This document shows, one piece after another, positions 10,997 to 18,035 of a stretch of DNA of 60,528 nt. This stretch comes from Sporichthyaceae bacterium. GTDB taxonomy: Bacteria; Actinomycetota; Actinomycetes; Sporichthyales; Sporichthyaceae. A program made the position numbers and the translations under genes. The notes below the pieces were generated by a model. The model did not search any database and was not told the origin of the DNA. It saw only the letters and a list, made by a program, of their open reading frames with translations. The DNA lies in NCBI GenBank assembly GCA_036493475.1, contig DASXPS010000025.1:1-60528 (forward strand). Reading direction: 5' to 3'. How positions within the stretch are numbered: the stretch's first letter is position 1; each line of letters starts with the position of its first letter.

Positions 10997-11085
10997 GGCT
11001 CCACGCTCCCTCGGCGCCCCCGGTGCCGGGGCACACGGCGCCAGCGTAGGCAGGGCGGGTTGCGCCGCGGAAGGTCCCCTGCAGA

Positions 11086-11376
11086 TCAGTCCTCCGGCGG
11101 CTCGGCGGGTTGGCCGCAGATCGCCTTGGCGGCATCGGGGTTGTCCTTCACCGGGGGCTTGGCGTCCTTCGCGATCATCGCGGCGCAGTCGTCGGTCTTG
11201 CCCGCCTCGCCCTGCTCGCAGGCCGAGGTCGCGTCCGGCTTGTGCAGGCCCGCGTGGTGGGCACCCTGCAGGCAGGTGTCGTAGTCGTTCGCGAACGCCG
11301 CCGGTGCGGCCAGCACCCAGGTGCCCGAGGCCACCACCATCGCGCCGAGAAACGACGTCATTCGAGCGATCGGCAT
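11086..11376 (-). CDS. Small secreted four-cysteine protein, paralogue of the 17.5-kb protein
   Basis: A 96-residue exported protein. The signal peptide (to AAFA, about residue 29) is followed by a 65-residue mature part with four Cys spaced C-x17-C-x10-C-x22-C. A second gene at 17511-17858 has exactly the same spacing and shares AG-hydrophobic-HK and K-x-PVKD. I do not recognise the family. Four Cys suggest two disulfides outside the cell. The start region (MPIARMTSFLGA) also aligns with the paralogue (MRTTRIASFLGA). Confidence 0.75.
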   Translation of the reverse strand: MPIARMTSFLGAMVVASGTWVLAAPAAFANDYDTCLQGAHHAGLHKPDATSACEQGEAGKTDDCAAMIAKDAKPPVKDNPDAAKAICGQPAEPPED

Positions 11377-11511
11377 GCTGCGTCCCTTCCGTCACCAGCT
11401 CGATGACGCAGCCTGTTCTGCCGGGCCCCGTGCCGTCATCGGCCCGCAGCCGACGTTCGCCGGAAGTTCCCGTGCGCGTTGCAAGCGCGCAACCGGCGTT
11501 CCCGCGGCGGA

Positions 11512-11826
11512 CTACCGGTGGGCGTGGTGACCGCCGGCCCCCCTCGAGTCGGCGGTCGTGCGCTTGCCCTGGTCGGTCACCGGGGTGCATTTGCCGTCCG
11601 GGCCGCAGTAGATCAGCGGGGTGCCGTCGGTGGGGGCGTCGGTTCCGGTGCATCCGGACAGATGCTGCGGCGTGCACGGGCCGGCCTGGTACGAGACCGG
11701 CACGAAGGTGCTGTCGCCCGCGGACGCCACGGGGAGCGGGCGCGTCATGCCGAACGCGGCCATCGCCACCAGACCCAGGACGTACAGACCCATCCGACGG
11801 GATCGGCGGGTTCTGGGCATGCGCAT
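11512..11826 (-). CDS. Small exported hypothetical protein
   Basis: A 104-residue protein with an Arg-rich N-terminus and one hydrophobic segment (LYVLGLVAMAAFGM), ending at a possible signal cleavage near PVASA. The exported part has four Cys (GPCTPQHLSGC, YCGPDGKC) and a His-rich tail (GGHHAHR). I do not recognise the family. The preceding gene on this strand is not close, so it is probably monocistronic. Confidence 0.55.
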   Translation of the reverse strand: MRMPRTRRSRRMGLYVLGLVAMAAFGMTRPLPVASAGDSTFVPVSYQAGPCTPQHLSGCTGTDAPTDGTPLIYCGPDGKCTPVTDQGKRTTADSRGAGGHHAHR

Positions 11827-12107
11827 GACAACTCCTGGCAGCTCAATGGCTTCGCGCGCCCTCGCGCGCCGGTGCGACCTCGAATCGCGCAGGTCTGGGA
11901 TCTACCCGCTCGGCCCCGGCGCTACGCGCCGAATCGATGTCGCGTGATCGTTTGGACGGGCCGAACGGTGGATGCGGTTCCCCGAATAACAACTTATTTC
12001 TCGAACTGTCAGCCGATAGCGCGACATGTGTTGATGAACCCGCGCTCGCTGCGGCTCACTCCTGCGCCGGTCGGACCCACCCGGATGCGCCCCGGCAACC
12101 GGCACCC
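11827..12107. other. Intergenic region between a small exported protein and a leaderless gene
   Basis: About 280 bases with no convincing gene. It holds the promoter of the minus-strand exported-protein gene. A short AT-richer stretch (ATAACAACTTATTTCTCG near 11983-12000) stands out from the GC-rich background. I see no repeat or RNA gene in it. Confidence 0.5.
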
Positions 12108-12142
12108 TTGACAGCGCAGCGTTGATTACATGTAATCAACCT
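12108..12142 (+). promoter_or_regulatory. Leaderless promoter overlapped by a 20-bp perfect palindrome
   Basis: A consensus -35 TTGACA (12108-12113), a 17-bp spacer and -10 TGTAAT (12131-12136) place the transcription start about 7 bases downstream, at the ATG at 12143. The -10 box lies inside a perfect 20-bp palindrome, GTTGATTACA/TGTAATCAAC (12121-12140). The arrangement is that of a leaderless mRNA whose promoter is blocked by a dimeric repressor, most simply the protein encoded immediately downstream. Confidence 0.75.
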
Positions 12143-12634
12143 ATGGCCGAGGTAGCGAGTTGGTTCAGTGGGCGGCTTCCGGAGTGGTTCGACGGCGCCC
12201 CGCAGGTATGGGTCGATCGCGACGAGATCCTGGTCGTGGGCACGCTGCCGCGTCCGGAATTGACGGAGGGTCAGCAGGTCGACGCGGTCGAGGCCGGCCG
12301 CATCGCGCGGTTCCGCGAGGACACCCGCGCCGAGCGCATGCGGATCGCCGATGAGGCCGAGGCCCGCTTCGGCCGCAAGATTGCCTGGGGTGCGCGCTGC
12401 GGCGACACCCAGCAGATCTTCACCTCACTGGCCGTGCCGGTGATGACCCGGCTGCGCCAACCCGAACGCCAGGTACTCGACACGCTGGTAGCGGCCGGCG
12501 TCGCGCGCTCCCGGTCAGACGCATTGGCCTGGGCGGTGCGCCTGGTGGGCAAGCACGAGGCGGACTGGATTGAGGGCATGCGGGCGGCACTGGAGGCTGT
12601 CGAACAGGCCCGAGCGGCGGGTCCGGCGGCCTGA
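12143..12634 (+). CDS. Putative autoregulatory DNA-binding protein with RHH-like C-terminal domain
   Basis: A 163-residue soluble protein. The N-terminal 75 residues are an unrecognised domain (VDRDEILVVGTLP, then a charged helix). A conserved-looking segment GRKIAWGARCGDTQQIFTSL follows. Residues about 97-136 (VPVMTRLRQPERQVLDTLV, then RSRSDALAWAVRLV) look like a ribbon-helix-helix: one strand then two helices with the R-S-x-A-hydrophobic pattern. The ATG lies only 2 bases after a perfect palindrome that overlaps the -10 box, leaving no Shine-Dalgarno; translation is probably leaderless. Function inferred: repressor of its own promoter. Confidence 0.7.
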   Translation: MAEVASWFSGRLPEWFDGAPQVWVDRDEILVVGTLPRPELTEGQQVDAVEAGRIARFREDTRAERMRIADEAEARFGRKIAWGARCGDTQQIFTSLAVPVMTRLRQPERQVLDTLVAAGVARSRSDALAWAVRLVGKHEADWIEGMRAALEAVEQARAAGPAA

Positions 12635-12725
12635 CGTACCGTCAGTCCCGCACGGACGCGTGGCGTTGTCCCGGCGGGGTAGATGGCTGGTCCGGGCGAG
12701 TTGCTCGGCAGGTGAGGAGGTCGAG

Positions 12726-12890
12726 ATGGACCCGAAGAAGATGACCCCGTCCCCCGGAGAGGACGAGTCCGTTCTCGACCAGGCCGAGGATGCGCTGGTC
12801 GGTGACCACGAGGACGGGCAGCACCCCGGCGCCGAGGACAAGCACGACCATGAGGACACCCGAGACAGGCCGTTCCTGAAAAGTCCGTGA
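12726..12890 (+). CDS. Small acidic hydrophilic protein
   Basis: A 54-residue protein rich in Asp, Glu and His (for example VGDHEDGQHPGAEDKHDHED), with no hydrophobic segment and no Cys. It is supported by a strong GAGGAGG ribosome binding site directly upstream of ATG 12726. Its TGA (12888-12890) coincides with the first base of a segment duplicated from the HMG-CoA lyase promoter region. Possibly intrinsically disordered or metal-binding; no family recognised. Confidence 0.55.
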   Translation: MDPKKMTPSPGEDESVLDQAEDALVGDHEDGQHPGAEDKHDHEDTRDRPFLKSP

Positions 12891-13075
12891 CCCGTAGGCT
12901 GCCCAGCGCAGGACGTGCGCCCCGCGAAGGGTCCGCGATGGTGGGTCTCCCCAACAGCGTCCAGATCGTCGAGTTCGGTCCGCGGGACGGCCTGCAGAGC
13001 CAGCCGGTGCCGGTGTCGACGGCGAGCAAGGTCGCGCTCATCGAGCAGGCCCTTGCGGCAGGCCCCGCCAACTGA
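12890..13075 (+). pseudogene. Truncated duplicate of the HMG-CoA lyase 5' end
   Basis: The stretch 12890 to about 13066 is a diverged copy of 14108-14278, covering the upstream region (ACCCGTAGGCTGCC, AGCGCAGG, GAAGGGTCCGCGATG) and the first 40 codons of the lyase. It reads MVGLPNSVQIVEFGPRDGLQ and stops after 45 codons in GPAN. Catalytic and metal residues that lie later in the enzyme are absent, so it cannot be a lyase. Either a decayed partial duplication or the scar of a recombination event. Confidence 0.85.
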
Positions 13076-13147
13076 CTTCCTTGAATGGTGTGAGCGGGAT
13101 GATGTCCCGCAACTCCGAGGAGTTCTGTCAGTTCGCGAGGAGAGGCC

Positions 13148-13555
13148 ATGTCCGGAGTAGATGCCGTAGTCCCCGCTGAACACCCCGTGTGGGTGGCGAT
13201 GCACGCCCGCCGTGCCGCTGACGTCCAGCTGAGGATCGCCGATGCGATCACCAAGTTCGCCGGGTCCATGGCGTTCGTCTACCTGCACGTCGCGATATTC
13301 GCGGTCTGGATGGTGCTGTTCGAGAAGAGCCCCTGGCCCACGTTGACCCTCGTCGTCTCGCTGGAGGCGATCTTCCTTTCCACGTTCGTGATGATCGGTC
13401 AGAACCGGGCGGCGGCGTTCCAGCAGGCCAAGGCCAGTCACGACTTCATCGAGCAGGAAACCGAACTCAAGACCAATACGCAGCTCACCCGAGAGATCCA
13501 CGTGCTCACCACCGAGCTCTATCGGCGCCTCCCCAACGCCGGTTCGACGTCGTAG
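13148..13555 (+). CDS. DUF1003-family membrane protein
   Basis: A 135-residue protein with two transmembrane segments (SMAFVYLHVAIFAVWMVLF; TLTLVVSLEAIFLSTFVMI) followed by QNRAAAFQQAKASHDF. The LSLEAIFLSTFV-x-x-x-QNR pattern is characteristic of DUF1003. It is preceded by a GAGGAGAGG site. It overlaps the convergent minus-strand gene by 37 bases at the 3' end. Function of the family is unknown. Confidence 0.82.
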   Translation: MSGVDAVVPAEHPVWVAMHARRAADVQLRIADAITKFAGSMAFVYLHVAIFAVWMVLFEKSPWPTLTLVVSLEAIFLSTFVMIGQNRAAAFQQAKASHDFIEQETELKTNTQLTREIHVLTTELYRRLPNAGSTS

Positions 13556-14046
13556 ACGTCGGCGGCTGGGGCGGCGCGCAGTCGGTCGGACACCTCGGTC
13601 TTCAACGTGGTCAGCCGGGCCTCTTCGGTGTCGGTACGACTCTCCCGGCCGGCGAGGTCGAGGAATTCGTCAGGAACGAAGCCGTCGCGCAGCACGGCCG
13701 TCACCACCACGTCGCGGTAGGTGAGCCGGAAGACGAAATGCGCGAAGGCCGGCCCGCGTTGCGGGCGCCCCAGCGACAGGTCAATCACGAAGCGCTCGTC
13801 GGTCACCGCGCGGGTAACCAACTCGAAGGAGTCGCGCCCGCCGGGGCCGCGGAAGGCCGTGCGCACGCCGATCTCGCGCCGTTGGGGAGGTCCGTCGGGG
13901 TCGAGCAGGGGCAGCGTCCGCTGCATCGCCTTGAAGGCATGGGCGACACCGGCGGCGGAGCCGCCGCCGTTGTAGTTCAACAACTCCGCGAAGGTGAACC
14001 GCAGCAGTTGCGATCCCTCCCGAACCTCCAGTGCCGCGTCCGTCAT
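13519..14046 (-). CDS. Conserved actinobacterial hypothetical protein
   Basis: About 175 residues with GGGSAAGVAHAFKAMQRTLP near residue 30 and RTAFRGPGGRDSFELVTRAV near residue 70, which I remember as a recurrent actinobacterial pattern without known function. No signal peptide or membrane segment. I start it at ATG 14046; the frame is also open to a GTG at 14109 adjoining the HMG-CoA lyase promoter, and neither start has a strong ribosome binding site. It is divergent from the lyase gene and overlaps the DUF1003 gene tail to tail. Confidence 0.65.
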   Translation of the reverse strand: MTDAALEVREGSQLLRFTFAELLNYNGGGSAAGVAHAFKAMQRTLPLLDPDGPPQRREIGVRTAFRGPGGRDSFELVTRAVTDERFVIDLSLGRPQRGPAFAHFVFRLTYRDVVVTAVLRDGFVPDEFLDLAGRESRTDTEEARLTTLKTEVSDRLRAAPAADVYDVEPALGRRR

Positions 14047-14153: not shown

Positions 14154-15053
14154 ATGGGTCTCCCGAACAGCATCCAGATCGTCGAGGTTGGCCCGCGGGA
14201 CGGGTTGCAGAATCAGCCGGTGCCGGTGTCGACGGCGGACAAGGTCGCGCTCATCGAGCGCGCCATCGCAGCCGGCGCCCGCCGGGTGGAGGCCACCGCG
14301 TTCGTGCATCCGAAGTGGGTGCCGCAGATGGCCGACGCCGAAGCGGTGATGGCCGCCGTGTCCCGTCGAGCCGACGTCTCCTACATCGGCCTGGTGCTCA
14401 ACCGGCGCGGCTTCGAACGCGCCGTCGAGGCCGGTGTCGACGAGGTACACATGGGCGTGTTCGCCACGGACACCTTCAATCAGAAGAACCAGGGCAAGAG
14501 CACCGAGGAAAGCCTGGCGGATTGGATTGAGATCGCCGGCTTGGCGCATCGGGCCGGGGTGCGGGCCAGTGTGAGCATCGCTGCCGCGTTCGGTTGCCCG
14601 TTCGAGGGCGAGGTGGCGGCGGCTCGGGTCATCGAGTTGGCCCGACGGCTGGCCGATACCGGACCGGCCGAGATCGGTCTGGGGGACACCATCGGCGTGG
14701 GCGTGCCGACCCAGGTCGGCGAGCTGATCGGCGGCATCCAAGAGGCCGTCGGGGCGATGCCGTTGCGCTGCCATTTCCACAACACCCGCAACACCGGCTA
14801 CGCCAACGCAGCCGCGGCGGTCGCCGCCGGGGTGGCCGCCCTGGACGCCAGCGTCGGTGGCCTCGGCGGATGTCCGTTCGCGCCCTCGGCGACCGGGAAC
14901 ATCGCCACCGAGGACCTCACCTACCTGCTGGAACGCATGGGTGTGTCCACCGGCATCTCGCTGGACACCATGGCCCGGACGGGGCTGTGGATGGAGGAAC
15001 TCGGCCTGAAACCCGAAGCCCTGCTCGGCCGCGCGGGACCGTTCCCGCGCTGA
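14154..15053 (+). CDS. mvaB: Hydroxymethylglutaryl-CoA lyase
   Basis: A 299-residue TIM-barrel enzyme splitting HMG-CoA into acetyl-CoA and acetoacetate in leucine breakdown. Signatures: VEVGPRDGLQNQ at the N-terminus (metal-binding Asp in PRDG), HFHNTRNTGYANA (metal-binding His pair and Asn), and GLGGCPFAPSATGNIATED, the family signature with the catalytic Cys. Complete length for the family. GAAGGG lies upstream of ATG 14154. A truncated copy of its first 40 codons and promoter lies 1.2 kb upstream. No other leucine-pathway genes adjoin it. Confidence 0.92.
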   Translation: MGLPNSIQIVEVGPRDGLQNQPVPVSTADKVALIERAIAAGARRVEATAFVHPKWVPQMADAEAVMAAVSRRADVSYIGLVLNRRGFERAVEAGVDEVHMGVFATDTFNQKNQGKSTEESLADWIEIAGLAHRAGVRASVSIAAAFGCPFEGEVAAARVIELARRLADTGPAEIGLGDTIGVGVPTQVGELIGGIQEAVGAMPLRCHFHNTRNTGYANAAAAVAAGVAALDASVGGLGGCPFAPSATGNIATEDLTYLLERMGVSTGISLDTMARTGLWMEELGLKPEALLGRAGPFPR

Positions 15054-17510: not shown

Positions 17511-17858
17511 TCAGGGGTGCATCGGGCCGCCGTCGCTGTCGCCGTCGTCCCCGTCGGGCTTGTTGGAGGAGTCGGCGGAGTCGGCGCCCACCGCGCTCTT
17601 GCAGATCTCCTCGGCCTTGTCCTTGTCGTCCTTCACCGGTGCCTTGGCCTTCTGCGAGATCAGGTCGATGCACTTGTCGATGTCGCCCGAGCTGGCATCG
17701 CCACAGGCCTCCTTGGCGGCCTTCTTGTGCACACCGGCGGACTTGGCGTCCTTGACGCACGGGTCGGCGGCGGCGAACGCCGACGGCGCCCCCACCACGA
17801 AGGTGCCCGCGGCCAGCGTCACTGCGCCGAGAAACGAAGCGATTCGAGTGGTTCGCAT
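17511..17858 (-). CDS. Small secreted four-cysteine protein, paralogue of the 11.1-kb protein
   Basis: A 115-residue exported protein. The signal peptide ends near AFA (about residue 27). The mature domain has the same C-x17-C-x10-C-x22-C pattern as the protein at 11086-11376, with shared AG-V/L-HK and K-x-PVKD, then an acidic Asp/Ser/Gly tail missing in the paralogue. ATG 17858 sits behind GGGAGGG. Upstream flanks of the two genes also show short similar blocks. Family not recognised; an extracellular disulfide-bonded helical protein is inferred. Confidence 0.78.
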   Translation of the reverse strand: MRTTRIASFLGAVTLAAGTFVVGAPSAFAAADPCVKDAKSAGVHKKAAKEACGDASSGDIDKCIDLISQKAKAPVKDDKDKAEEICKSAVGADSADSSNKPDGDDGDSDGGPMHP

Positions 17859-18035
17859 GGTGCCCTCCCTAGGGGAATGTCCTGACGCCGCAGCTTCTGT
17901 CCGCAGGGCGACACGCGCATCCCACGCCGCGCCGCAATTCACCGGACGTTCCGCGGGATGCTGCCGACCACGCCCGGACGTTCAGGCAACGGACACCGAA
18001 TCGCTGTTGCGGCGGATAACTGACTATGGGTCAGC

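Follow-up and report, generated by a model that had tools for sequence, protein, structure and literature searches.

A conserved octad array ahead of a probably leaderless abmR gene as a likely autoregulatory operator in a Sporichthyaceae bacterium

The stretch of DNA analysed here, called the window in the following, comprises 60,528 nt from a Sporichthyaceae bacterium. It contains an open reading frame of 163 codons, counted from the ATG at position 12143, behind a promoter that overlaps two contiguous copies of an 8-bp word (Table 1). The product matches the NCBIfam model NF058631 (ATP-binding transcription factor AbmR) over its full length: residues 3-162 align to positions 4-166 of the 167 positions of the model, and the score of 246 bits compares to a curated cut-off of 160 bits (E 1.4e-73). 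This match identifies the gene as the abmR of the Sporichthyaceae bacterium, orthologous to M. tuberculosis Rv1265. The first-pass annotation had assigned the protein to a little-described family; this view has to be given up, as the AbmR family is already known and the gene in the window is a further member. Among 60 relatives, 38 have the gene; across the class, it was found in 140 of 297 genomes. An in-frame TTG located 21 bases upstream of the ATG is also open, but the homology starts at residues 1-7 of the product as read from the ATG. Sequence searches of the PDB, both single and profile, returned nothing significant for the product, a search of PHROGs gave no match, and the Pfam families ParD and DUF5959 matched only below their cut-offs. 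The idea that the protein is the antitoxin of a toxin-antitoxin pair was rejected because no partner gene was recognised and the match to AbmR is full-length.

Table 1. Features of the abmR locus in the window
Feature	Position	Strand	Basis
-35 hexamer TTGACA	12108..12113	+	Sequence; TTGAC[AGT] 17-18 bp from TGTAAT recurs in relatives
Possible degenerate third octad CGCAGCGT	12115..12122	+	In register; matches TGTAACGG of most homologues; weak
Perfect 20-bp palindrome GTTGATTACATGTAATCAAC	12121..12140	.	Sequence; single genome copy
Octad 1, TGTAATCA on the minus strand	12123..12130	-	Octad array analysis
Octad 2, TGTAATCA, holding the -10 hexamer TGTAAT (12131-12136)	12131..12138	+	Octad array analysis
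abmR orthologue, 163 aa + stop, probably leaderless	12143..12634	+	NF058631, E 1.4e-73; translation
N-terminal domain, residues 1-95, KH-type-II-like, probable ligand/oligomer domain	12143..12427	+	AlphaFold2 pLDDT 91; VIA-align Z ~6
Ribbon-helix-helix DNA-binding region, residues 98-137, VPVMTRLRQPERQVLDTLV..GVARSRSDALAWAVRLV	12434..12553	+	Near-invariant; RHH antitoxins are structural neighbours

The product of the gene just downstream of abmR looks like a hydroxymethylglutaryl-CoA lyase, and a 125-bp direct repeat (12942-13066 and 14155-14279; 86% identical, 1213 bp apart) represents a second, truncated copy of this gene's 5' end. Moreover, the minus strand encodes two small proteins (11086-11376 and 17511-17942) whose N-termini resemble signal peptides; they look like paralogues of each other.

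The promoter of abmR consists of a TTGACA hexamer, a 17-bp spacer, the hexamer TGTAAT and six further bases in front of the ATG, which is not preceded by a purine-rich Shine-Dalgarno sequence; all these elements lie where the first-pass annotation had placed them. TGTAAT is an unusual -10 hexamer since it lacks the usual A at position 2, and for this reason the promoter is missing from the list produced by a consensus scan. The arrangement of TTGAC[AGT], a spacer of 17 or 18 bp, TGTAAT, and four or six bases before the ATG recurs in several genera and in other families (loci L003, L009, L061, L062, L066 and L137), and this supports the leaderless layout that had been proposed. The palindrome overlapping the -10 box was confirmed as well. 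It is the only perfect 20-bp palindrome of the window, and no second copy with up to three mismatches was found in the 4.27-Mb genome. By itself it is mildly surprising: dinucleotide-shuffled windows contain 0.15 perfect 20-bp palindromes on average, and 9 of 60 shuffles had one. What carries it beyond chance is its half-site: all 130 homologues tested have it upstream, recurring in an 8-bp register, and a chance palindrome was rejected on account of these conserved octads.

The simple palindromic operator that had been envisaged did not survive the comparison with homologues, a test that the first-pass annotation had itself set, whereas the octad reading holds: the palindrome itself is not conserved, and the upstream regions contain GTAATC repeats rather than palindromes. 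The exact half-site was found in 120 of the 130 distinct upstream regions. Pairs of the word TGTAATCA (at most one mismatch) 8 bp apart were present as direct repeats in 64 regions, as direct repeats on the other strand in five, and in the two inverted forms in three and four regions; pairs 6, 7 or 9-12 bp apart were absent from all 130 regions, and shuffled regions yielded no pairs. The best adjacent octad pair reached at least 12 of 16 positions in 130/130 regions, which are related rather than independent, as compared to 1/390 shuffled ones. According to the profile, a degenerate octad TGTAACGG precedes two good octads. The octads are direct in 112 of the homologues and inverted, as in the window, in 18, and at least ten changes of orientation are required on the protein tree, a count that is a rough guide only given the 160 residues of the tree. 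Since the nearest relatives with the gene, a congener (G001) and a family member (G004), carry direct octads whereas the window has inverted ones, the palindrome is one arrangement of a more general octad array. In two Modestobacter loci (L071, L089), the direct octads lie on the other strand (GATTACatGATTAC), a mirror image of the usual array. The array overlaps the -10 box and the start codon of abmR. For 89 of the 130 homologues, the first in-frame start lies inside the array or at most 8 nt from its end and lacks a Shine-Dalgarno sequence. The commonest layout, judged by these starts and the recurrent TGTAAT-ATG spacing, is therefore leaderless expression with the -10 box located within an octad. 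As judged from the SD-like starts in 33/130 homologues, it is not universal. At five loci (L070, L079, L120, L128 and L140) the first in-frame ATG upstream of the abmR match sits within or at the end of the array, and the longer annotated N-termini of mycobacterial orthologues therefore deserve a check.

The array also follows the gene from genome to genome. In counts compiled by hand from tables, a direct array with at most two mismatches was present in 101 of 140 genomes with abmR but in 38 of 157 without it; when family f25, a small-genome, AT-rich family with many scattered array matches, is excluded, 13 of 130 genomes without abmR remain. A pattern search, the sole means by which other arrays were sought, found no second array in the genome of the window, and in twelve further genomes every match with zero or one mismatch falls within the abmR locus. 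This distribution points to a local rather than a global autoregulator, and the conserved array that accompanies the gene supports the earlier proposal of self-control via an upstream site.

The architecture of the protein was predicted by AlphaFold2 with 48 homologues (mean pLDDT 91). In the C-terminal part, the motif PVMTRLR is followed by helices spanning residues 106-117 and 124-137 and then by a long helix. A Foldseek search with the whole model gave no match under E 0.001, the list being dominated by the N-terminal domain. With residues 94-163, the top 13 of 13 chains were RHH antitoxins, with weak E-values (best 0.36). VIA aligned 68 residues of this segment to 5ceg (Z 5.6, rmsd 5.4), and NikR, another RHH regulator, came next in its list (Z 3.4). 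The models are monomeric single chains, and the ribbon strand does not form in them. These results suggest that residues 94-163, approximately, belong among the ribbon-helix-helix antitoxin folds, in agreement with the RHH-like C-terminal region that had been recognised from the sequence. T102, R103, L104, S123 and R124 are among the residues that are invariant in the homologues; if the register of the strand is the usual one, R103 and R105 would face the DNA. The N-terminal domain has the order helix-strand-strand-helix-helix-strand-strand. Its neighbours in VIA-align include many KH domain chains of ribosomal protein S3, tied with unrelated plaits at Z ~6; this likeness to KH domains is suggestive only. 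The alpha-beta-beta-alpha-alpha-beta order of KH type II domains fits, but there is no GXXG between the helices at 46-60 and 62-76. The first-pass annotation had seen here an unrecognised domain with a G-x-x-x-W-G-A-R-C-G-D-T segment: the WGARCGDT segment is indeed a conserved feature, a beta-hairpin of this domain, whereas the family is not unrecognised but AbmR. Sensing of a signal by the N-terminal domain is plausible by analogy, solely through what is known of Rv1265 and ATP.

For Rv1265, binding of both ATP and DNA has been reported, as have an effect of ATP binding on DNA binding and, in M. tuberculosis, the induction of Mcr11, a divergent small RNA (PMC8628891). The roles of Rv1265 may be broader, since a 2026 study found the protein near PacL1 effluxosomes (PMC13043812). 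The window protein shares the full-length family match with Rv1265, and the octad array lies ahead of the mycobacterial abmR genes as well; the named loci that were compared do not include M. tuberculosis itself. According to Girardin and colleagues, who are said to have termed it a novel class of DNA-binding protein in 2018, Rv1265 is reportedly auto-inhibitory, its DNA binding is enhanced by ATP, and its C-terminal arginines are needed.

A precedent for the arrangement of the operator is the omega protein (ParB) of pSM19035, of which one RHH dimer binds one 7-bp WATCACW heptad, pairs of dimers accepting direct or inverted words (PMC9499535). Both systems combine an RHH-type protein with short non-palindromic words that adjoin each other in direct or inverted orientation and lie over promoters (PMC9499535). 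The omega operators are characterised by contiguous short words in one register and free orientation, and the same is true for the octads, with the 8-bp register in 130/130 regions. It is for this reason that we propose one AbmR dimer per octad and autorepression. The AbmR words differ in length (8 rather than 7 bp) and in number (two or three rather than seven to ten); moreover, AbmR has one locus, no known ParA partner, and an extra N-terminal domain. MetJ is an RHH repressor that acts on contiguous 8-bp met boxes together with a small-molecule corepressor. The period of the octads recalls that of the met boxes; however, met boxes are palindromic words and MetJ controls a regulon whereas one array was found here. 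The antitoxins of the ParD/PrpA type are the best structural neighbours of residues 94-163, but AbmR has a separate domain in front of the RHH region, and no toxin gene was recognised adjoining abmR in the window.

Taken together, AbmR is likely to be an autorepressor whose RHH dimers each read one octad and shut off their own leaderless gene, with an N-terminal domain that would respond to a ligand. In this model, the C-terminal RHH domain would dimerise, each dimer would read one word TGTAATCA in either direction, and adjacent dimers would pack on contiguous words, so that two or three of them would lie over the -10 box. In the window, the dimers would occupy two octads in head-to-head orientation, which lie over the -10 box and end four bases before the start codon. 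Occupancy of the octads would exclude RNA polymerase and thus switch off abmR transcription. By analogy with Rv1265 and ATP, a small molecule would act through the N-terminal domain to adjust DNA binding. For this organism, we infer the binding of AbmR to the octads, the repression, the stoichiometry of the dimers and the effect of the ligand.

The mycobacterial loci provide a different setting. The Rfam family RF02341 (ncrMT1302, the sRNA between MT1302 and MT1303) was detected in five of them on the opposite strand, with its 5' end at a distance of 112-149 bp from the array. This RNA, Mcr11, was not found by an Rfam search of positions 11000-13800 of the window, and the sole match in this interval, a sub-threshold one to sX9, was taken as chance. 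The divergent Mcr11 is a trait of the mycobacterial members rather than a criterion for the AbmR protein family. A TTCGC-N5-GCGAA box with 9 or 10 of 10 positions was present in 53 of 130 regions as compared to 4 of 390 shuffled ones, mostly starting 40-41 bp before the octad array; L070, L082, L096, L116, L136 and many other loci have it upstream of abmR. This sequence has the form of a ClgR site (PMC2905415, PMC3613350). At three mycobacterial loci, 108-111 bp separate the centre of the box from the 5' end of the RNA model, matching the position of the CRP site proposed 107 bp upstream of the start of MTS0997 (PMC3207917). abmR may be a target of ClgR or CRP. The box was not found in the window, which differs from the mycobacterial loci also by its TTGACA -35 hexamer and its inverted octads, those of mycobacteria being direct.

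Other readings of the locus were weighed against the proposed autorepression. One two-fold operator occupied by a single AbmR dimer, with the octads elsewhere being a separate matter, would be in line with the perfect symmetry of the site in the window and with the 18 homologues that have inverted octads; the large majority with direct octads in the same 8-bp register, the congener and the family member among them, makes this reading unlikely. Slightly less probable still is that the array serves a different transcription factor, one that is widely shared and controls abmR, and that AbmR is not bound there. Such factors are indeed at hand in M. tuberculosis, where Cmr binds upstream of rv1265 (PMC5499769) and a CRP site has been proposed in the intergenic region (PMC3207917). 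However, the octads do not resemble the Cmr site as quoted, TGTCAGCGTGCTGACA (PMC5499769), contiguous short words suit an RHH protein, and an array that tracks the presence of abmR and is nearly confined to this gene points more to an autoregulator than to a shared factor.

Finally, the main duty of the array might be the activation of the divergent Mcr11, with the control of abmR being secondary. The position of ncrMT1302 on the other strand at the five mycobacterial loci and the induction of Mcr11 by AbmR in M. tuberculosis (PMC8628891) speak for such an arrangement. Yet the scan of the window and of non-mycobacterial loci found no such RNA, and the array nevertheless occurs in them and overlaps both the -10 box and the start codon of abmR, so that we regard this possibility, too, as improbable. 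Autorepression through the octads is the reading that we prefer for the window. Whether it can be extended to the whole class is, in our judgement, evenly balanced: the AbmR proteins might generally be RHH autoregulators that act on orientation-free octad arrays, mostly at leaderless promoters and at what is essentially a single target locus in each genome, and that carry a KH-like nucleotide-sensing domain, and mycobacteria would later have coupled this system to Mcr11.

A text search of the open literature for the octad pair retrieved no relevant paper, and no paper linking Rv1265 with ribbon-helix-helix proteins was found there. The open literature searched, from which the two Girardin and McDonough papers on AbmR were absent, contained no account of the AbmR operator or of the RHH assignment; the anatomy of the octad operator seems to be the new part, its novelty being provisional. 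In M. tuberculosis, AbmR governs a small RNA that is abundant, and the octad word and the RHH assignment provide directly testable bases for its contact with DNA, with R103, R105 and S123-R124 as predicted key residues, and predict which bases are important. The presence of the octad array in lineages in which Mcr11 was not detected suggests that self-control is the core of the system.
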